Shown here piece after piece: positions 348 to 44,800 of a stretch of DNA of 64,000 nt. A program made the position numbers and the translations under genes. The stretch spans positions 29,688,781 through 29,752,780 of the forward strand of contig NC_092706.1 in NCBI RefSeq assembly GCF_964275005.1, in the 5' to 3' direction. The stretch is from Diadema setosum (Eukaryota; Echinodermata; Echinoidea; Diadematoida; Diadematidae). The notes beneath the pieces are model-generated. The model was given only the letters and a program-made list of their open reading frames with translations. It did not search any database and was not told where the DNA came from. How positions within the stretch are numbered: position 1 is the stretch's first letter; each line of letters begins with the position of its first letter.

Positions 348-660
348 TAAATAAGCATTGAATTGATCAGTGTTTTAGTAGTAGCCATGATAAAAAATCA
401 TGGGCGTACATACTCGAGTAGGATTCGAACCTACGACCTCCTGATCTCCAGACAGGCGTCATCTCCAGACCACCGAGCTTTCGCCCGACAGCAAGTGTTG
501 GTTCTAATCCTTATAACATGCAGCGGGTACTGCGTAATTATTCAAATTCATGAAATTCTTCCGTCGAGATGTTTTTCATTGCAACTGATTGACAAATTGC
601 CCTACATCGACGTAAATAAGCACTGAATTGATCAGTGTTTTAGTAGTAGCCATGGTAAAA
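348..660 (-). repeat. tRNA-derived SINE-like element between direct repeats
   Basis: A tRNA-like block lies on the minus strand at 402-486. It has a 5-bp T stem around GGTTCGAATCC (the B box) and an A-box-like AGCTCGGTGG. It is flanked by two nearly identical direct copies of about 47 bp (348-394 and 613-660, two differences seen). The same tail sequence (attgacaaattg, tcgacg) recurs at 35956-36305. A tRNA-derived SINE is the best reading; the parent tRNA is unclear because the anticodon stem is imperfect. Confidence 0.6.
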
Positions 661-5139: not shown

Positions 5140-7179
5140 ATGACTTTCGCAAAGATGTTTGCGGCCATCGCCACCATTATCACCATCATCATTCATGTCC
5201 AACATGTATCTGGGCGATCGGTGAATACGGATGAAGTCAATAGGACCACGCCCTTTGCACGTACAATCGACAACGCCACGGAGATATCTGCAACCGGTAA
5301 TGCAACACGCGTCACGTCAGGGCCGTGCGGTGATGATGGCACAACAGCCTGCAAGTTCGCTGCAACCTCAGCGAAATACGATGACGAGCTAAAAATTGTC
5401 GAGAACACTTCTATAGAATACAACGAGTCGCTTACGAGTAAGTACCAGTTTCTTCTAAAGTTAGATATCGTTATGCTCTTTTTTTTAGTTTTATTTTTTC
5501 AAAATATAATGGTAATTTATGATATGTATATTTGTTACATGTGATCGTTTTTGTAATAATTGAAACGTTCCATATTATACTGATATTGAACATGCTTTGT
5601 GAACACACTCGATTCATGACTAATGACAACTTTCAAAGAAGGAGCGTCATCCTTCAAAGAATTTTAGAGTTTAAAGTGGAGTGTGTAAAGGTGTCTTTTT
5701 TTCAAGAAATGACAAAGGACCTCTAAGACATATCCAATTATACACTATTCTACCAAAAATGCTCTAGAATAACTGCTAAAACCATAATTTCCCATTTGTT
5801 TCATGTTCCAAAATTTTCGAATAATAAAGACGAGTATTGCTCTTTAAGAAAAGATATGAAGCTCCAGATTGGCTAAGTTGACACGTTTCATTTATTTTGA
5901 GTCCTGACGCAAAATCAGGGCGTGCGACTTTTTGTTACCTTTGTGATGCACCATCGCATTTGTTTTATAAACCTTAGAGGATTCATCATCAAACCTGTCT
6001 AATTTGCAATAATAAAATGATACATGCTTAACTTGTATGTTTAGCTTTAGACGTATAACATAAGCAGAGAACAGGACTGGTGTTATATCAACCTGAAACA
6101 TACAATAATATAAGATTTCATGCCATTTTTTAAAGTTCAACAGCCTGACTTAGTGTACATCAATTTGATTTAACTTTCAAACAGATGAAACTGATAATGA
6201 ACCCGAATGGGTGTGGGGGACGTTAGACTGGGAATGGTACACCATTCTCCAGCTTATCTCAGGGATACTGGGGTCCATAGGCAACCTCCTTGTAGCCGTC
6301 ATCATCTTCCAACGTCGCTCGTCGGCGCGATCCACCGACATCCTCATCGGTAGCCTGGCCATCGCCGATTTCCTGACGTCGATTTTCATCATCCCGTCGC
6401 CGAGTGCGAGAAGAGTTCCGAACTCCTGGACGGGCATGCTGGCCTGCCTGATTCTATACCCGGACACATTCTTGTGGATATCAGTTACCGCTTCGTCCTA
6501 CATCCTCATGGCAATCTCCATCGATCGATTCATCGCGGTTGTCTACCCACTCCACTTCAAACACATCGTGACCATCCGTCGGGTCAACATTGCAATTGCA
6601 GTCATTTGGTTGGCGGCCTTCCTGTCGCTCTCATTCACCTTCTTCGTCATCAAAGTCGACGAGACAAGCCATGAATGCACGTTCACGATCACGACAGACG
6701 CGGGTTATGCCGCCATGGGCTACTTCTGGTTTTCCGTCCGCATCATCGTCCCAGTCCTGACGATGCTTATTACGCAATCTATCATCGCCGTCAAGCTCCA
6801 CATCCAGTCGTCAACTTTCAAAGCCAACGAGACCTCGGCCGTCGCTGATGTGCACATCAAGGCTCGTAATCGCGTCATCGGAATGATGCTGATCGTCATT
6901 CTCGTCTACATCGTCTGTTGGTTGTCTAACCAGGTGGCCTTTCTCGGTTACCTTGTCGGCTTCGTCCCGTGGTCATACTTCCGGAGTCCGCTCCACCGCG
7001 TTCTGACGGTTCTCGGCTACTACAACAGCTGCGCCAACCCGTTCATCTATCTGGCTCGTAATCCGAATTTCAGAATTGCCCTTAAAGAGTTCTTCACGTG
7101 CATTACCAATAAGAATGAGTCTGTTTTCAGCCAAAAGGCCGATCCAGTCCAGGCGGGCCAAGCCGCTGCGCGCGGCTGA
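5140..7179 (+). CDS. Rhodopsin-class (family A) peptide-type G protein-coupled receptor
   Basis: Two coding exons, 5140-5437 and 6185-7179, joined across a GTAAGT..CAG phase-1 intron, give 430 residues. Residues 1-25 look like a cleavable signal peptide. The ectodomain to about 115 is rich in N-glycosylation sequons and has a Cys pair around CGDDGTTAC. Seven membrane spans follow, with GN in TM1 (N133), SLAIADFL in TM2 (D161), TM3 Cys187, SIDRF in place of DRY (213-215), ECL2 Cys264, a TM5 proline (P289), CWLSNQ in TM6 and NPFIY in TM7 (384-388). The TM6 proline of the usual CWLP is Ser347 here, although the paralogue keeps it. The split codon makes Asn100 of an N-E-T sequon. The architecture is that of a membrane receptor signalling through G proteins; the ligand is unknown. 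It may belong to an echinoderm lineage-specific expansion, such as the 'surreal' GPCRs of sea urchin, but that is inference. Confidence 0.93.
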
Positions 7180-8600
7180 AAGACCACGGACGCTCGCCTT
7201 GGGCTTCATCCAGCTGGTCAAAATAATCCAAGACCTACCGCATGTGGCGCTCATCAAGTTTCATAGCTTCGCTGCTTTTTCTCGATCAGTGGGTGAACAC
7301 TGAATCCATTTTGTGCGTTTCTAAAACTTGAACAAAACTCCTAAAAATCAATGTGTTTGTTTTATGTAAGCTCACAAGGCAGTGTGGCAAACGTTCTCTT
7401 TTGCTTTTTTATAATTATAATAGTAGGTTGCAAATTATTTTGCTCGAACCGTATGCCATGTAATGATTTTTATGCAGATGATTATAATCACCATCAGCAT
7501 TTTCATCAGTCTATTGATAAAATCTAAGGGGGGCGCGCTGCAATGTTTATCTGTGGTTTCGTAGATTGTTTGAGTAATCTATAGACTACAGTATGTTTAA
7601 TTTCAAACTGCAGAGTCACAACGATTGACAATAAGATATAGTGACCCGCAAGATTCCTTTTTGGGACCGTTATCATCTATTAGATTTTTATTCATAAATG
7701 TCATTGTTTATTCGGTCTTATTGTTATAATATATTTTGTTATGAAACAAATGATTATATTTTTCTTATCGAAAGTTTGACACTTTTTAAAGTAGTTTAAA
7801 TATTGAATCGCTAAAAATGTATTCATGGTTTGAATGTAATAAATTATCATTGAATATTTTGAAAACAATTTATACTAATGATGCGTCACATTCTCAATCT
7901 GCTGAATGTAATATCTGTATAGATGGAAATTGTTAATTAGACAAACAACGACTAATTCTTATTTTTGGAGTAGTTTTGAATGATAAAACTCGGCATGATC
8001 ATAGAGATATAACAACTGTTATCTTTCAAGACAGATTAGCATTTTGTATAAACTGCGATGTCTATTGTTATCGAAATCACATGTATTGTAATAAATTAAT
8101 TCTTCCTTTTTATGACTCATTTCATGTATTATCGTCACATTTGGCACATGGGAAGAACAACTAAACTCCACATAACCGTTTATTTGAACTTTCTCTGGGT
8201 CACCCATTCAGAGTGCTTTATACGAAAGTACAAAGAAATACATAGTACATTTTTCTTTACATTTTTTTTTCATTTTTACAAGTGTCTTTATTTGGACCAA
8301 TCAGATTTATACTTGCCACAAACCAAAAGCAAATCAAACTCCATTGTTTGTCATGGTAAAAATTTCTCAAGGTCATCACATGGGGAGCGCTATTCATTGC
8401 AGTATAAAGAAATATATTATGAGACCTAATGTATTGTTTGGTATAGGTACATGTATGGTTATTGGATCACTGACAAAGGAAGACGGACGCCGCTTTTGGA
8501 TTGTATAATGGCTATATTATTCAATCTGCAATCAAAACAAAGATGCAAAGAATACATTAGCATTCAAGCATTCAGATGAGTACATCATTTGTTGACAATG
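7180..8600. other. 3' flank of the first GPCR gene
   Basis: Very A+T-rich sequence, probably containing the receptor 3' UTR. No further gene or repeat family was recognised. Confidence 0.4.
7838..7843 (+). terminator. Candidate poly(A) signal of the first GPCR gene
   Basis: AATAAA lies 659 bp after the stop codon in A+T-rich DNA. A second AATAAA lies near 8090. Either could end the transcript; no other 3' landmark is seen. Confidence 0.35.
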
Positions 8601-8730
8601 TGTTATCTTATTACATGAGTCACTGTTTAACCAATCAATGAGTGACTGTTTCATAACTTTCAGAGTGTTATCTTATTACATGAGTCACTGTTTAACCAAT
8701 CAATGAGTGACTGTTTCATAACTTTCAGAG
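8601..8730. repeat. Perfect 65-bp tandem duplication
   Basis: Two 65-bp units (8601-8665 and 8666-8730) read identically. Each contains ATGAGTCACTG and the related AATGAGTGACTG. The second unit runs into the left arm of the adjoining palindrome: its last bases, CTTTCAGAG, are also the outer end of that arm. Confidence 0.9.
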
Positions 8731-8939
8731 TGAGACCGGTATGAGATTATGCCATATCAAAATATCGACCAGAAATTTACACCGTCAATACATCTCTTCA
8801 ATCGGTAGAGCATGGGACTCTTAATCCCAGGGTCGTGGGTTCGTGCCCCACATTGGGCGCCAAAGAGATGTATTGACGGTGTAAATTTCTGGTCGATATT
8901 TTGATATGGCATAATCTCATACCGGTCTCACTCTGAAAG
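8722..8939. repeat. Perfect 77-bp inverted repeat with tRNA-Lys loop
   Basis: The left arm (8722-8798) and right arm (8863-8939) are exact reverse complements over 77 bp, starting CTTTCAGAGTGAGACCGG. The 64-bp loop is the 3' part of a tRNA-Lys. Perfect arms mean a recent event or gene conversion. No transposon terminus or target duplication was found outside the arms. Confidence 0.93.
8799..8862 (+). pseudogene. Truncated tRNA-Lys(CTT) ending in CCA
   Basis: The stretch matches tRNA-Lys from about position 13 of the D arm to the 3' end: GGTAGAGC, anticodon loop ACTCTTAAT with anticodon CTT, T arm GGGTTCG.GCCCC, acceptor strand TTGGGCG, then CCA. The 5' acceptor strand and most of the A box are missing, so it is not a working gene. 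Eukaryotic tRNA genes do not encode CCA, so this suggests a copy made from mature tRNA. Position 58, normally A, is T here; that base is methylated (m1A) in most tRNAs and is prone to misreading by reverse transcriptase. Confidence 0.85.
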
Positions 8940-10071
8940 GGTTTTCGCTTCTCGTCCACTAAGTGGCGGTCACCAGGGATTTATCCAGCCTAGTATTAGA
9001 GTCAAGACTTTATAGCAGATAATTTCTCAAAAAAGAAAAACAACTAACAAAAACCCATAATGACTATCTAAAAAGACAAGCACACACTCATAAGCATATA
9101 AATCATTTCACTATTCTGAGTTTAGATATGAATTACTTTCTCAAGAAATAGTTGTTATCTATTCACTTCTTTGTATATTAATTGTTCATAAATTGGGTAC
9201 ATGTGCAGAAACATGAAATAGTTTATAAGTTTAAGGTATACCGAGGTGTAAGTAGGCCCTATGTCAATGTGTTTTTGAATGAACATATTGAAATTCATTT
9301 TTTTTTGTGTGTGTGTGTGTGTGTGTCTTATAAGATTAAGTAGCTATTTTATTTTCTTTCTTGGACGAGTGTGGGCGTGAAACTGACCTATCCAATGACG
9401 CAATTATAAATCCAGTGGCTACCCCTCCCCCTCCCCTATCACCTCTGTTTAAGAACTTGAGTGTAAAAGATTCGACTTTTGCATCAAACGGTGATATAGG
9501 GTTTTCCATATCCGGGGGCGTACGAAAAATTGAAAAGCTTTATTAATGTCAAGGTTCAAACTCTAAAAACGGAAACAACAAATAATAAATGCCGACATTT
9601 GTCCAGCCTTATCTATTCAAGAAATAGAAAAAGCAAGTTAGACTCACTATACCGATGTCCATTGCGTCCCACTTTATCTAATCGTCCATGCTTACTTGAA
9701 TTATTTGAAAGCAAATAATTCATAAAAGCAATGTCCAGAGTCTCTTCTCGAAGGAGGTTTCTCCGCTTTGTGTAGTCTGTTTAATATGAGAACTCAAAAT
9801 CGTATCAATACTGGTCAAGTGAATAAACCGCTTAATAGCTACTCTCTTTCTTAACAATACGCTGTAAGGAATGACTGGAACAACAACGACAACAATACCC
9901 TCTGCGCTTCCATGGAAACCATAACGTTCTTCTCGCTTGTAAGTTTTTTTTTTTCCTGATAGACGGAGAAAAAGTTTTCTGATAGACGGAGGAATAGAAG
10001 TGATAGTCCATTCTGAAAATAGATAGCAGAAGGTAAGAATGTCATCGCTACACATACATAGGCCCTATACA
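8940..10071. other. No recognisable gene
   Basis: Contains a T-run plus (GT)n at about 9298-9327. No exon, RNA gene or shared repeat was identified. Confidence 0.4.
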
Positions 10072-23855: not shown

Positions 23856-25892
23856 TCATGCCTTATTCATGATCGTTCCATGCCCGTCGTGGGTGTCACT
23901 GGTTTTCTTACTTCCCGCCGTGGTGAGTTTGGTATTGGCTGGACTCACTTTCCAGTCGAAAACTGACACATCCTTGTTTGCCGCGCATGTCAGGAACTCA
24001 CGGAGAGCAATCCTAAACTGGGGGTTACGAGTCAGGTAGATGAAGGGGTTGGCGCAGCTGTTGAGGAATCCGAGAACGGTGAAGACGTGATGAAGAGGGC
24101 TACCGATGTATGATGGCGGGAAGAAGCCGACAATGTAACCGAGGAAGGCCACCTGATTGGGCAGCCAGCAGACGATGTAGACGACAATGACGAGGAACAT
24201 CATTCCAATGACGCGATTCCGCGCCACGATGTGAAAAGCGGTGGTAGCCGAAGTCTCGTTGGCTTTGAAAGTTGACGACTGGATGTGGAGCTTGACGGCG
24301 ATGATGGATTGCGTAATAAGCATCGTCAGGACTGGGACGATGATGCGGATGCAAAACCAGGTGTAGCCCATGGCGGCATAGCCCGCTGCTGTCGTTATTG
24401 TCAGAACACACTGATGACTCGATTCGTCGACTTTGATGATGAAGAACGAGAAGGAGAGAGATAGAAAGGCCGCCAACCAAATAAAAACGATTGCAAATTT
24501 GACTCTGCGGTTGGTCACGATACGGCCGAACTGGAGTGGGAAGACGACCGCGATAAATCGATCAATGGAAATCGCCATGAGGATGTAGGACGAAGCGGTG
24601 ATCGACGTCCATAATGGAATGTCAGGAAACAGAATGAGACAGTATAGCATGCCACGCCAAGAGTTCGGTATTCTGGTTGGACGCGGTGTCGGGATTATGA
24701 AAATCGACGTCAGGAAATCGGCGATCGCAAGGCTACCGATGAGGATGTCTGTGGATCGAGCGGACGAGCGACGTTGAAATATGATGACGGCGACGAGGAG
24801 ATTGCCCAGGGTTCCCAAGATCCCAGATATTAACTGAATAATGATGTACCACGTCCACTTTAACGGCATCACCTCCCATTCAGGTTCATGGGTTTTGTCT
24901 GGTTTTAAGAAGCAACGTGAAGGAAAAGACCAATTTATATAGAAAGCTAGACAATCAATACCATTAATTTTGATCATTGAAATGACTCCGGAAAACATGT
25001 TGGGAGAATTGAAAGTAACATTAATAATGCGATCAATAAATTCATTTGCACAAAAACATAAGGATCATAGTTGTACATAATGATTGCACGTGTCATTCAG
25101 CCCTACAAAATGTTAAGTAGCAAAACAGTAACAACAGCATGCGAATTGTCTTGCAACAATACGCAGGAACCTTCCCGTTATATGTGATACTCTATTCTAG
25201 AAGATCAGAGATAACCCTGAAATATGTACGATTTGTGGTCAATTTGTCAAGTATTCTTCTATCGAATATTGTTATATATGTAGCAATGTGCTATTCAATG
25301 TTCTACTTTAAGTTTTTCTTTCAAAGCGTCTATGGAAGTATTTCCTATTTTCTACTGAGAAAATATATTTATGATTTCGAATTCCACTAAACTTTATTGT
25401 TTTATGATTGTGGTTCTCACGTTAAAGTCGATATGAGAAAGTGGATTAACACCTGACAGTCCTGATGGACCTTTTTCGGGCTTTGTTCCTTTTGTTTTCT
25501 TTTAAAGACAGTAGACATTCTTTGCCGCATATTGCTCTTCATTGAAAGGGTATGTTTCTACGGTAAATCTAGATGCGATTACAATGGTAATATATATTAA
25601 GGGGATATTTATACTCACGTCCATCCGTCTTGTTGTGCGACGCAGAAGAATTTTTGTCTTCGTCAGATGGTAGATCAGCACCGGACGTCGTGGAGCCTAT
25701 AGTTAGCATGCATTCTGATTCGTTACCATCGGCACATAATCCTGGTTGGCTAATTATGGTCATAGCATCAACAGTGGTCCCACTCCCAGTAGAGGGAATG
25801 GGCGTGGTCGTGTTGGCTCCACCCATAGGTACATGTTGAAGGATGGCGATAAAGATGAAAGCGATGCAGACAACTAAAGTGAAGGAGGCCAT
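23856..25892 (-). CDS. Rhodopsin-class (family A) peptide-type G protein-coupled receptor, paralogue
   Basis: Coding exons 25892-25619 and 24898-23856 joined across a GTGAGT..CAG phase-1 intron give 438 residues. The N-terminus looks like a signal peptide, followed by a Thr/Ser-rich ectodomain with several N-glycosylation sequons and a Cys pair (CADGNESEC) with the same seven-residue spacing as in the plus-strand paralogue. Seven membrane spans follow: GN in TM1 (N124), SLAIADFL in TM2, SIDRF for DRY, a canonical CWLPNQ in TM6 and NPFIY in TM7. The membrane core is very similar to the receptor at 5.1-7.2 kb, and intron position and phase are conserved, so the pair arose by duplication and now converges tail to tail. 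An acceptor at 25905-25904 just before the ATG predicts an untranslated first exon upstream; it was not found. Ligand unknown. Confidence 0.93.
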
Positions 25893-38841: not shown

Positions 38842-41800
38842 TAATAATGATAACAACAACAATAATCAAATAATAGTAATAGTAGTAATAACAATAATAA
38901 TAAATGTATGATATGGGAGGTGAGCACAAGCAAAAGGTCGTTTTGATTTTCATATGTAACCTTATAGTAGTATTTCATAGTTTTTACATCAACATTATCA
39001 AGTCTTGTATAAATGTATATCATGCCATCGTTTGAAAGTGGTAAATCATTACAGCAAGAGCAAGGGGTCTGACAAATCCGGTTCTACATATAATTACCAT
39101 AATACAGTGCACTCCCGTTATAACGATCACAGTTATAACGAAATTCCGATTACAACGAAGCAAAAATTCAGGTCGCAAAATTATGCGCTCTTTGTTCTTT
39201 ATTGTTTATTTGTTCGGCAAAAACAACAACATTAACAACAACAACAGAAACAGACAAACGAATACACAAATACAATTAATTTTATTCGTGAATAAACCTT
39301 TTAAACCCTTCCTGTGTCAATGAGTCAAATGTGCATAAATTTTTCAGACAACACTCTAGAAAGGTAACAAAAGACTGTGTTGAAAGACTGTGACAAACTT
39401 ACCCTCTCGTTCACACAGTGCGGCATGTTTACCAGTACAATGTTTGTCCGCCCATCGATAGCCCTTACCAGGCTCTACCGCCACACAAGCCGCATGTCTG
39501 TCTAGATTCCAGAAGTTTGTGTAGTTAAGCTCCTCCCCTGTCGTCCATCTAAACTGGCCAAGGGTTGGTTGGGTCAATCCAATCCAGGAATTGTTGACCT
39601 CTACAGAGACGTAAGTTGATCATACTGAGATTAACCTATCCCATACTGAATTCTGAAATCCCCGTTGACTTTATACACAGGCTACCAGGTTCCCGCATGG
39701 AACGCGTTAAAGTAACGGATAAACTCCTAAATCATTGTCTTTAAAGATATGATAAATTCCTAATGTAACCTCAATAATGGCAAACGAATTTCAATGCTAA
39801 TTTTTGGCTAGTCAACAGACCTGGCAGACTCCAATAGATAAATCTTATGACACTTGATCTATGACCTTTGTCCCTTTTGACCCATAAGGAATGACTGCAA
39901 CCCGTGTGCCAATGTTAGAGTATTAAAATGGCAGGGCCCCTTCGGAAAACATTGTTAATACCAAAGAGACTATCGTGCGCAGAAATAACCACATCGCATC
40001 ACCATCATTATCTTTGCTGTTACTACTCTCATCAACGTAAAAAGTTTAACAAGAAACAAGAAAAAAAAAATCTCAAATATTCAAAGCAATGATAATAGCT
40101 CATTGATTTCGATGAGTATGCCCAGACAATCACCCATTCCCTGAACTGAACATGCTGAAAGACACATGATAACTAAAATTGTCTAAGGGGTAATATAATG
40201 TTATCTACTGCCAGAAGACCAACGATAACTGTACGACCAACATCTAGGATTAAAGGGATGTTGATATACTTGGTTTGAGATGGGGATTCAAGTTTTAACT
40301 TCTTACGAGATGATTAGAAACCATTTATATGAAATATAAAAGAGTATCGCTGTATCTTCCTGGTTATAAACCTATTGATTCTTCTCGAATCACTGCTTTG
40401 CCATGATCAACAACAATGGGATAATACTACTTCAAATGCAGAGGTCTTCGTAAAAGGAAAAGGTCAAAGCAGAAAATCAAACGCTTATTAAAACTTTTCA
40501 AAGTTTTAAAAAGTAGCACATTTTATCACTCCTTCAAGAAGGTAAATATTGGCGAGATTTAGATGACTTACTCAAGTTTTCCATGAGGGAAACCACGTGG
40601 TCATTTTCTTGGCTGGTTTCCAGGAAAACAAGATGACTTCCAAGAGCCATGCATTCTTCTTTTGCCTTATCTCTCTTCATTTTAACTTCAGTGTTGATTA
40701 GGTAGCACGAGGTGCCATACCTTGAGGTGAAATTTGCCGGACATGGTCCTGTAATCGGGTAGTAATGAAGATTACAACTACACGTCACTGCATGGGTAGT
40801 CTTGTAATAAATTTCATGAAAACATTTTCGGGTGCACGTCACGAGACCGACATTCACGAGCCATATAGCCCACGAGTCATACAGCTCACGAGTCATACAG
40901 CCCATGAGATATACAGCTCACGAGTCATACAGTCCATGAGTTCGACACTAAGCTAACAAGGCCTATGAGACCGACACATTAAGCCCCGTGTTGTATTTGT
41001 CGAACTCGTGGGCTGTTTTTACCTACAATGTCGAACTCATGGGCTTAATTTGCCGGTTGTCGAACTCACGGGCTGTATGACTCGTGGACTGTATGACTCA
41101 TGGACTTGTTTTTAATGTCGAACTCGTGGGCTTTATGAGTCGTGGGTGTCGGTCTCGTGAGATGACCCCACATTTTCCAGACCCCTTTGGTATGCACGTT
41201 TTTAGAAACCTGGGGCCTTTTTCATAAAGAGTTGCGACTGATCTTACGCTCGATTTATTGAGCTTAACTCACTGAATCGAGCATAAGATCAGTACTGATA
41301 GTAAGTCTGTTTCACAAAGATACTTATGTTTGAAATTAAGTGCAACTGTAATAGCCAATCGAACGTAACTTTTTTTTTAATTTCATTAATCCTAAAATCA
41401 ATTCTTGAGTCCTTGAGGGTTTTGAGATATTCAAGATTTTTTATGTCCATTTTGGCGGCCATCTTGAATATCTCAAAACCTCAATGATGCGAGAGTTGCG
41501 ATCCTTTAAATAAGGTGAAATTCAATATTTGTTACATTTAAGTGAATCATGATTATAGAAATTGCAGAATGTGGCGGCCATTTTGCATATCTCAAAACCC
41601 TAAAGAATGCAAGATTTGCATCATCCAGACTCTGATTCAGCACTCTTTAAATAGGGTAAAACAACTTTTAAAAAAAAAGGTCGAACAGTACAACAAGGTT
41701 ACGCCTCTGTCACCAAAAATGTATTACCTCCATCATGTACTTCAGTTTCGCAGACAAAGAGAGATTTAAAGGAACAACTTCTGTCATTCCATTTCCAGTT

Positions 41801-44800
41801 TGAACTTCCCTGAGAGCAGATACAATCAGTGCCTAAGTCGTGAGCTTTGTTCGCAGATACCCAGTTCGTGAAGTTTACAGGTGAGCCATCCATCCACGTG
41901 AAGACGAAGTCGTCGACCGGTTCCAGACCGATCCAAGCGGGCTTCTTGCCAGGGTAGTTGGAGAGAAAGTTCTTAATGTGGACTTGTTCTTCCTCAGACG
42001 TGATGAGGGCCAAAGACGAGGCAAGACCGGCGCAGAATTCACCCGCCTTGTCACGGTTCTTAGATGGCTCCAGTCTGTAGCATCGGGGGCCGGCTCGTGT
42101 AAAGCCCGCAGGACAAACTGGAATAATTATGGAATCAAAGGAGCTACAACCAATACTGCATGGACTGTCATACAAAGCACCATTCCAACCTTCTATTTTA
42201 CCGTTTGCCCCCTCTAGTCTCTGCCGGATGGCGTGGTCACACCAACACAATAGCGTGCTGTGCAAAACTCTGAACAGTATAACAATTATTTTCTTACTGT
42301 TCCTGTCCCTCCATTTCTAAAATTCAAAGTTTCAGGTAAAATATTATCTTCGTTGTCTGATAGATCGTACCCCTTTTACCTTCAATCAACATTTTGAAGA
42401 AAAAAAAAACCGACTTCATATTGGCCCTTTCGTCCCCAGCCTCTATCATCCAACTTAAATTTCTTCTACACTAAAATTATTACCTGCATGCCCTTTCTTT
42501 CTTTTCTTATTTAAAGGAATTTCAATCAAAGATCTTGAAAGCTATTGATGCAGAGATAATACACAGGGGTTTCTGTAAGTTTGTTTTGTTTGATAGATAC
42601 CAAATTTTCTGCAAATCAATATACATCAGTTACATAATCATAGACATGTGGGAAATATACAAAGTAAATTTGAAACGGAGTCATTTGACTTGCATAAACA
42701 GCGATATAAAAGGAAATTAATTACAATAATGTATGCATGTCTATACAGCAGGGATTACAATAACAATTGTAGTTAAGAAGTGATTATGCAGAGGGCCGCC
42801 ATTGTAAGCATTGCTTGAAAAGACGGCCGGCCCGAGGAAAAGGTAGAGACGTACTAGATTCGTAACAATACAAATTCTGCTGCGAAGCCCTCTGTCTGTG
42901 AAATTATCAAAATCTAAAGTTTAATTAGCATGAGTGGGATATGCTGAGTTGCAAAATTATATCGGACCGTGAAAGAAAAAAAAAATGTCTCCACTATCTG
43001 ACTATCCTATCTAAAGCACTGCGGTATATCAAATTTGGAAGCATACGACACTAGCGATCAGACTCTGACCTGGTTTTGCCAACTAAAATATCTTTCTGGC
43101 GTGAAGTGCGTCACTGTGTAATTACGGAGACATTATAATAATCATCCTGATTAAATCACTCACCCTTTCTATTTAGGTGAGTATATATAACGTCAGACGA
43201 CAGTAGACTCCTATCTAAACTTTTGTTGCCGAGGATAAACGCTATGTATTTGTGTCTGGTCATATTCATCATCATACTTTGTCATACGGTCATAATTTTA
43301 GCGCTCTGTCCCGATATAAGCGGCATCTAATAAAGAAATTTTGGAGATTCATGTTTTGTTATTATCATGATTACAAAAGTAAAGATACACTACTCGAAAT
43401 GATCGCGATGGAAATAAGTGTAGGACTTGGATATAATATATTGGAGAAGTTGTACAGAGAAAACTGTATATTTGGCTGTTCGTATTATAACTGAAACATC
43501 ACTAAACAAAAAGTAAAGGAAGAATGGATATAAGACATAAAAAAAAAAATTCCAATTAGAATGTATTAATTGAAGATTAGTCTTGCATCTATACTCAAGT
43601 TTCATTACTTGAACACTAATTACATGTGTTCTGGGTTAGACTTAAATTTACAGGCAAAAACAAAAAAACAAAAAAGAAACAACCCAAAACAAAACATGTG
43701 AAACAGAGGATTAGGAATTACTTCGATTAAAGTGTTCCTGAATACGTTTCGAGGAATTGTTCATATACAGAAATGATCTTGGATAGCGCTGATTATGCAG
43801 AGCAGGGCCTATTGTCCGCGTTTGGACGATAAGAAAACACTGACATTTTACAAACTGAAAATACATGTTATTATTTTTTTTTTCACTTTTTCGTCTTTTC
43901 ACTTTTTGAAATAATTGCAGCATTCTTTGTATAAATAATTATGTTTCTTTTACTGCGCTGCAGCATGTTTTAGTGACAGAATTGCGTGTGTTCGCGATTA
44001 TTAACGTGCATGAAAGGATATGCATACGTGCTGATGTTCTTTGATATGATAATTTATAAGCACTCGAATAAAAGCTTGTGCATTTGGCAGTGTTTGAAGT
44101 CTTTCGAATAAAGGCAGATGTATTGTTTTTTTTGTGAGCAGTGAAAAATGTTACACGTCCGAATCTTTTTCTGTACATTTTTGCCTCTCCATTATTTCAT
44201 TTCATAATCCTCTCTTTGTCTTGTTTTTACAAGGTTTGCATACATCGTGCAATGGCCTCTATAACCTAATTATGCACTGTGAAGTCATGACACGTTTCTT
44301 GAATGACAACAGAATGGGACAAAATTAAGCGAAATTGGCTTGAATTAATCGATGAAAGGAATGATAATACGTTCAGTAGACAGTTGTGCTGGACACAGTG
44401 AGATAGCGTGATCTAGTCTGATTCGGTACAAATCGTACATGGCGTATGGAAAGCACTGGCAACTTACGTTGTATTTTATTGCATGTTGGCAACGCGAATC
44501 AAGTGTAGGAACTACGTCAGCTCCACTTCATATTACTGAGCACTGGTGAATGTGTAGTCAGGAAGCGATCCTTAAATGATCGACCGCCACCAAATATCTG
44601 ACCTGTTTTACGGTCTGGTGTACACAGCAAGTGATACCGCTATAATATATTTCTCCACCCCACCCCCTCTCTCTTTCCTAATCCCTCTCTTCCATGCGCA
44701 TTATGTTGTTGATTTTATTGTATTTATGTTATAAATTATCGCTTGCCAAATAGTCAAGCTTTATGCTTATTCCTAACAATCGTGCTGTATGGAAATTGTA

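Follow-up and report, generated by a model that had tools for sequence, protein, structure and literature searches.

The 218-bp palindrome described here, present in the assembled genome of Diadema setosum, appears to be the scar of one compound copying event in which a tRNA-Lys(CTT) copy became the loop of a hairpin, and its likeliest setting would be a chromosome break that was repaired through templated insertion combined with fold-back synthesis. We give this reading a probability of roughly 0.6. The features on which it is founded are collected in Table 1, numbered within the window, that is the whole stretch of 64,000 nucleotides that was analysed (C24:29688781-29752780, from a genome of 912.7 Mb in 102 contigs). 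The genome searches scored the best candidates and skipped common words, and the copy counts and absences reported below are therefore provisional.

Table 1. Position and strand of the features at the palindrome locus, numbered within the window.
Feature	Position	Strand	Remark
Presumed left half of a 5-bp target-site duplication, GTTAT	8458..8462		Directly before the TG of the repeat
First 271 nt of the ~1.64-kb repeat (336 with the duplication)	8463..8798	+	Remaining ~1.36 kb missing
65-bp perfect tandem duplication, unit 1	8600..8664	+	Only in the window copy; one unit in the 7 other aligned copies
65-bp perfect tandem duplication, unit 2	8665..8729	+	GTG at both edges of the duplicated segment
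Left palindrome arm	8722..8798	+	Repeat in sense orientation
Loop, nt 13-76 of mature tRNA-Lys(CTT)	8799..8862	+	A15 at 8801, T58 at 8844, CCA at 8860-8862
Right palindrome arm	8863..8939	-	The left arm's 77 nt of repeat, inverted
Flank immediately beyond the right arm	8940..9300		No second copy found

Elsewhere the window holds two rhodopsin-family 7TM frames (6169-7176, plus strand, and 23859-25064, minus strand; Pfam 7tm_1, E 5.8e-39 and 9.2e-38), which are alike by eye and possibly reflect a local duplication, as well as a C-type lectin domain frame (41702-42316, minus strand; Pfam Lectin_C, E 2.1e-17). A tRNA-Ser(GGA)-like gene (409-480, minus strand) is the sole tRNA called in the window.

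The palindrome and its tRNA-Lys loop

Comparison of the two arms in the assembly shows that they are exact complements over 77/77 nucleotides, with 64 nucleotides between them. Folded as DNA, the structure reaches -101.8 kcal/mol (z = -25), a value equalled by 0/200 shuffled sequences. This arrangement corresponds to what fold-back synthesis leaves behind, an exact inverted copy adjoining a DNA end and a short loop, and the inverted microhomology at the loop edge amounts by eye to at most one A:T pair. The palindrome was found once, with none detected elsewhere in the genome by a search that scores best candidates only, so that this count is also provisional; a search with 8930-9300, skipping simple repeats and very common words, returned the self match only. 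A weak SNORD27-like match lies to the right of the palindrome (9052-9123; 27.5 bits against a gathering score of 52, E 0.03) and is probably due to chance. Models of microRNA precursors also match the structure (MIR8675 with 54.2 bits, MIR2646 with 46.2 bits), as would suit a functional hairpin, either microRNA-like or a regulatory inverted repeat under selection. However, these scores are far under the respective gathering cut-offs of 90.8 and 245, long hairpins are expected to match such models and the structure was found a single time; a microRNA precursor was rejected on these cut-offs, and we judge a selected hairpin to be very improbable.

The loop departs from nt 13-76 of tRNA-Lys(CTT) at two sites: nt 15 is A in place of G, and nt 58 is T in place of A. 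It ends at the exact mature 3' terminus of the tRNA, and T12 of the tRNA is common to the loop edge and the arm. The Rfam tRNA model matches 8796-8851 with 27.2 bits, slightly under its gathering score of 29, and ARAGORN called no tRNA gene at the loop. A genome search using the tRNA-Lys(CTT) gene yielded at least 18 matches, which comprise 10 intact genes, the window copy and 7 sequences at 80-88% identity; the gene counts are lower bounds, and G15, A58 and CCA were scored in the 10 intact genes, which are 100% identical to the query over 73-75 nt. G15 and A58 are present in 10/10 of these genes and a genomic CCA in 0/10. Since the loop carries CCA and T58 whereas the genes carry A58 and no CCA, it was copied from a processed mature tRNA, and its derivation from a mature, reverse-transcribed tRNA-Lys(CTT) is supported. 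These observations are those expected of the RNA intermediate of a templated insertion, and the template is also a distant one, as the 10 genes sit on C2, C5, C14, C18 and C20 and the palindrome on C24; their transcription we assume. Best-candidate searches found no further copy of the tRNA with CCA elsewhere in the genome. Position 66 of tRNA-Lys is G in the form from other animals; A66 is present in all 10 genes and is therefore not a copying error.

Most of what the sequence-only reading had put forward is upheld by these results. The 77-bp perfect palindrome is as described, its loop is indeed tRNA-Lys(CTT) from about nt 13 through CCA, and the statement that nothing else in the window matches the arms is borne out in the 3 kb scanned around the site and in the genome search, apart from the 8 nt by which the left arm overlaps the 65-bp duplication. 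That the CCA is not encoded in the genome and T58 is not genic withstood the search for genes that would refute it, and the same figures argue for the proposed reverse transcription of a mature tRNA-Lys and its capture as the loop of a hairpin.

As to the origin of the two changes, no modification can be named behind A15, and position 16 beside it is often dihydrouridine in tRNAs. The change to T58 fits a copy made over m1A, a base at which the assays of PMC11019740 yielded A-to-T more often than any other mutation. In the same account HIV reverse transcriptase gave no A-to-T on untreated m1A and three other enzymes gave little, and because the product depends in this way on enzyme and treatment, T58 is consistent with m1A but no proof of it. 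Two changes are present in the 64 nt of the loop, compared with 0/77 mismatches between the arms; the chance of both changes landing in the loop is 0.018 when the repeat fragment, the duplication and the arms are counted (477 sites), and 0.085 over the palindrome alone. There is moderate support for the view that both are copying errors rather than later mutations.

The repeat carrying the arms

Genome searches place the arm sequence within a low-copy, dispersed and non-coding LTR-like repeat of ~1.64 kb. At least nine other copies exist, which we designate C7 (C7:6487094), C3a (C3:36983542), C3b (C3:9498011), C3c (C3:9274055), C3d (C3:14961007), C16 (C16:26906014), C13 (C13:29897750), C2 (C2:879274) and C4 (C4:7164433). 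The left end, TGGATCAC..., occurs at least 7 times at up to 3 mismatches, the window counted, and the right end, ...GAAACA, at least 9 times, the window not among them. The copy C2 is devoid of the left part of the repeat, and both C2 and C4 of the arm region. An exact 5-bp target duplication flanks 5/8 of the scorable copies with both ends (C7, C3a, C3d, C16 and C4), among which C3d starts with TA and not TG; C3b and C3c, themselves a duplicated pair, are set in GTTTG-rich sequence and have an inexact target duplication, and C13 shows no match. TG...CA ends and a target duplication of a fixed length within 4-6 bp, as in LTRs, are thus present. Among the at least nine other copies, no arrangement of two LTRs around an interior was found, the one copy read, C7 (L009), contains no ORF of 90 aa or more, and an exact 16-nt primer-binding site for tRNA-Lys(CTT) occurs only in the window. 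As no copy with two LTRs and no sizeable ORF was found, the LTR identity is taken from the ends and the target duplication, and the repeat is best called LTR-like, the copies being probably either solo LTRs whose family has been lost or a relative that is not autonomous. CCAAT, AP-1-like and AATAAA motifs are presumably part of the repeat, with the outer end of the arm, at repeat position ~195, as candidate transcription start, and these points were not used in our verdict.

Other classes of element were considered and rejected. For a DNA transposon with inverted ends TCACTGACA-AAGG / TCATTGAAACAAGG, 39/500 shuffles were as good over 30 nt and 409/500 over 60 nt; a tRNA-derived SINE, which would exist as dispersed copies of a tRNA-headed unit, is at odds with a palindrome and a tRNA+CCA copy that were each found once in the genome searches; and an autonomous element was dismissed on the genome-wide repeat searches. 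Separately, a weak direct similarity exists between the repeat ends (L009 4795-6430), equalled in 1/300 shuffles over 150 nt, 4/300 over 300 nt and 13/300 over 400 nt; it stems from a post hoc look and would be of interest if real. The copy C4 (L033, C4:7164433-7164677) has been shortened by internal deletion to 245 bp, keeps both ends intact and has the exact 5-bp target duplication ATCAT; it is possibly a miniature derivative of the repeat. The regions C3:9268800-9278700 and C3:9492800-9502700 (L014 and L013), separated by ~224 kb, share 95-97% identity across several kb, the repeat included, and are evidently a segmental duplication. Also, the left flank of the window copy (8250-8426) and the surroundings of C7 (L009 3218-3395) have another repeat in common, at 79% identity over 181 nt.

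The window copy differs from this family in several respects. It breaks off at ...ACATCTCTT, a point at which all 7 others continue into TTAT[A/G]TC, and the missing ~1.36 kb was not found nearby in the genome search. The right half of the GTTAT duplication was not found intact; GTTTT at 8941-8945 matches at 4/5 positions, which is within chance. The left arm is identical to C7 and C3a at 75/77 nt, and to the 5 other aligned copies it matches over 68-73 nt at 79-93%, these having ~30 extra nt near the inner end. Judged against C7 and C3a, the window copy has 0 changes of its own in 271 repeat sites, with 4 each in C7 and C3a, and its one difference from both, at site 181, is the state of the 3 other copies compared. 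With no private substitutions in this copy, there is no basis for placing the event later than the insertion of the repeat. Between the edge of the 65-bp duplication and the outer end of the palindrome there are 7-10 nt.

In the alignment, 0/7 of the other copies with the arm region have the tRNA or the inversion, and the palindrome therefore looks like a single event, one rearranged copy of the repeat and not a class of element. The earlier statement that the structure fits no element class thus stands for the palindrome itself but not for its arms, which are recognisable as the left part of a dispersed LTR-like repeat, and the search of the assembly for the arm with and without tRNA returned the 7 copies without it and a single tRNA-bearing copy. 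Long-read and amplified libraries are known to give rise to perfect inverted repeats as artefacts, and a fold-back produced during assembly or library construction has to be considered. However, a loop with a post-transcriptional CCA and an m1A-type change would be unexpected from a library of genomic DNA, and an artefact would also have to account for the absent 1.36 kb of the repeat and for the 65-bp duplication peculiar to this copy, so that it seems to us highly improbable.

Proposed course of the event and its setting

In the break-repair reading, a mature tRNA-Lys(CUU) would first be reverse transcribed from its CCA end, with A-to-T at 58 and a stop at nt 12/13 in the D-arm; the mature origin and the end points are indicated by the sequence, and we infer the modification and the enzyme. 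A DNA end located 271 nt into a recent repeat copy would then be extended with the tRNA copy, with ~1 nt shared on each side, the junctions being observed and the polarity deduced. The extended strand would fold back with the tRNA copy as loop and copy 77 nt of its own 3' part, which would yield the perfect arms, and the new end would finally be joined to the present right flank with loss of the other ~1.36 kb of the repeat, a loss which is itself seen in the assembly. The 65-bp tandem duplication would probably result from the same run of template switches. We assign the parts to one event because the arms start at the edges of the tRNA copy, because arms and duplication are free of differences compared with the two changes of the loop, and because the edge of the duplication is only 7-10 nt away. 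At the joints no poly(A) is present and ~1.36 kb of the repeat is missing, but the GTTTT at 8941-8945 resembles GTTAT.

The coincidence of edges also weighs on a course in two steps, in which a LINE enzyme would insert a 5'-truncated tRNA retrocopy into the repeat and a fold-back inversion would later pivot on the tRNA. Hundreds of mammalian tRNA retrocopies are attributed to LINE-1 in PMC5322556, and 21 tRNA/LINE-1 chimeras in the human genome are reported in PMC13174262, which gives the first step a precedent. However, each arm begins exactly where the tRNA copy ends, at the mature 3' A on one side and at nt 12/13 on the other, which would require independent events to coincide to the base, and there is no target duplication around the loop besides the arms; such a course appears improbable.

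The orientation of the tRNA speaks against break repair. Relative to the left arm, the tRNA copy is in sense orientation, and this is the weak point of the reading, because a left top-strand 3' end copying the tRNA directly would leave an antisense tRNA. The observed polarity could be explained if the tRNA cDNA strand was itself copied, if a tRNA fragment was ligated, if synthesis proceeded from the other strand, or if the loop was inverted later. The same orientation suits a different setting, in which the palindrome was formed before integration, within a retrotransposon particle, during reverse transcription of the LTR-like element. There the tRNA-Lys, as primer or as template, would be copied beyond m1A58, strand transfers would produce a snap-back cDNA, the TG end would be integrated and the malformed end sealed by the host. 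The locus would then be an integrated snapshot of misfired reverse transcription, with the 3' end of tRNA-Lys joined to antisense element DNA and copied past m1A58 with an error signature, an origin that we consider unlikely, although not far-fetched.

Indeed, the CCA is followed directly by antisense repeat, which is the polarity of a tRNA-primed minus strand, and reverse transcriptase, tRNA and element DNA would be together in one particle; the intact TG left end, the lack of own substitutions in 271 sites and the resemblance of GTTTT to GTTAT would also suit integration. As reported in PMC13191261, copying beyond A58 occurs in m1A58-methyltransferase mutant cells and minor products with native tRNA stop at ms2t6A37, beyond m1A58, but the main product with native tRNA stops at m1A58; in PMC10986323, tRNA-Lys-primed HIV cDNAs are reported to jump to many positions in vitro. 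Against the particle setting stands the repeat family, in which no two-LTR copy with interior was found and no sizeable ORF in the copy read, and in which the tRNA-Lys primer-binding site was likewise missing: in the 5 scored of the 7 arm-region copies, the 18 nt that follow the arm agree with a tRNA-Lys(CTT) site at 5-7/18 positions, and the exact 16-nt site occurs in the genome only in the window's own loop. A canonical tRNA-Lys-primed LTR, in which the arm would be R-U5 followed by the primer-binding site, was rejected on these grounds. With one mismatch the 16-nt pattern gave 7 hits, of which 3 at tRNA-Lys genes and the other 4 (L034-L037) without LTR- or primer-binding-site-like junction by eye, and its reversed control gave 5 hits against 8, which places one-mismatch hits near chance.

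The locus suggests that a DNA end, in the course of its repair or malformation, can take a mature and probably modified tRNA as template, and that the strand so copied is able to fold back; precedents exist for every step. If the misfired cycle is true, modified bases of the tRNA would be readable from DNA as they were at the moment of insertion. With the signature of CCA and T58, assembled genomes can also be screened in a simple way for further cases of RNA-templated repair.

Comparison with known systems

A literature search, limited to titles and abstract openings among the best matches listed, returned no perfect palindrome whose loop is a tRNA copy that includes CCA; the systems closest to the locus are compared below. 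In the readthrough of primer tRNA during retroviral plus-strand strong-stop synthesis (PMC13191261), tRNA-Lys is likewise copied from CCA past position 58; unlike there, no primer-binding site adjoins the arm in other copies of the repeat, and the tRNA here is inside a palindrome. A reverse-transcribed piece of tRNA in the genome is also what tRNA retropseudogenes and tRNA/LINE-1 chimeras represent (PMC5322556, PMC13174262), but the tailless copies described there are 3'-truncated and selected ones have target duplications, whereas the present copy is 5'-truncated, with CCA intact and no target duplication of its own. The templated-insertion fold-back inversions of oesophageal cancer (PMC9588063) share with the locus a templated segment within a fold-back; in contrast to the 218 bp with a tRNA insert found here, they are somatic, accompanied by copy-number gain and telomere loss, and have genomic inserts.

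Closer likenesses are found among the products of break repair. Fold-back inversions at breaks in yeast range from 2 to ~150 bp, most being under 14 bp, with a 41-nt loop (PMC11724301), and these local insertions resemble the locus in having an inverted copy adjacent to the end, in the range of its length, in a loop of tens of nucleotides and in the joining of the other end at nearly no homology. The differences are that the loop is here a reverse-transcribed RNA and not local DNA, that 77 nt falls towards the upper limit of the yeast range, and that priming would have relied on ~1 nt of pairing compared with 10 nt of imperfect pairing in yeast. Class 2 templated sequence insertions (PMC5110952) are templated by RNA and arise at breaks without target duplications. 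The human class 2 TSIPs of that account agree with the locus in an RNA-derived patch, no intact target duplication, a loss of sequence and ~1 nt of microhomology at the joints, and differ from it in that the patch is here a mature tRNA together with an inverted copy of the broken end. The steps are individually known, and it is their combination that is unusual.
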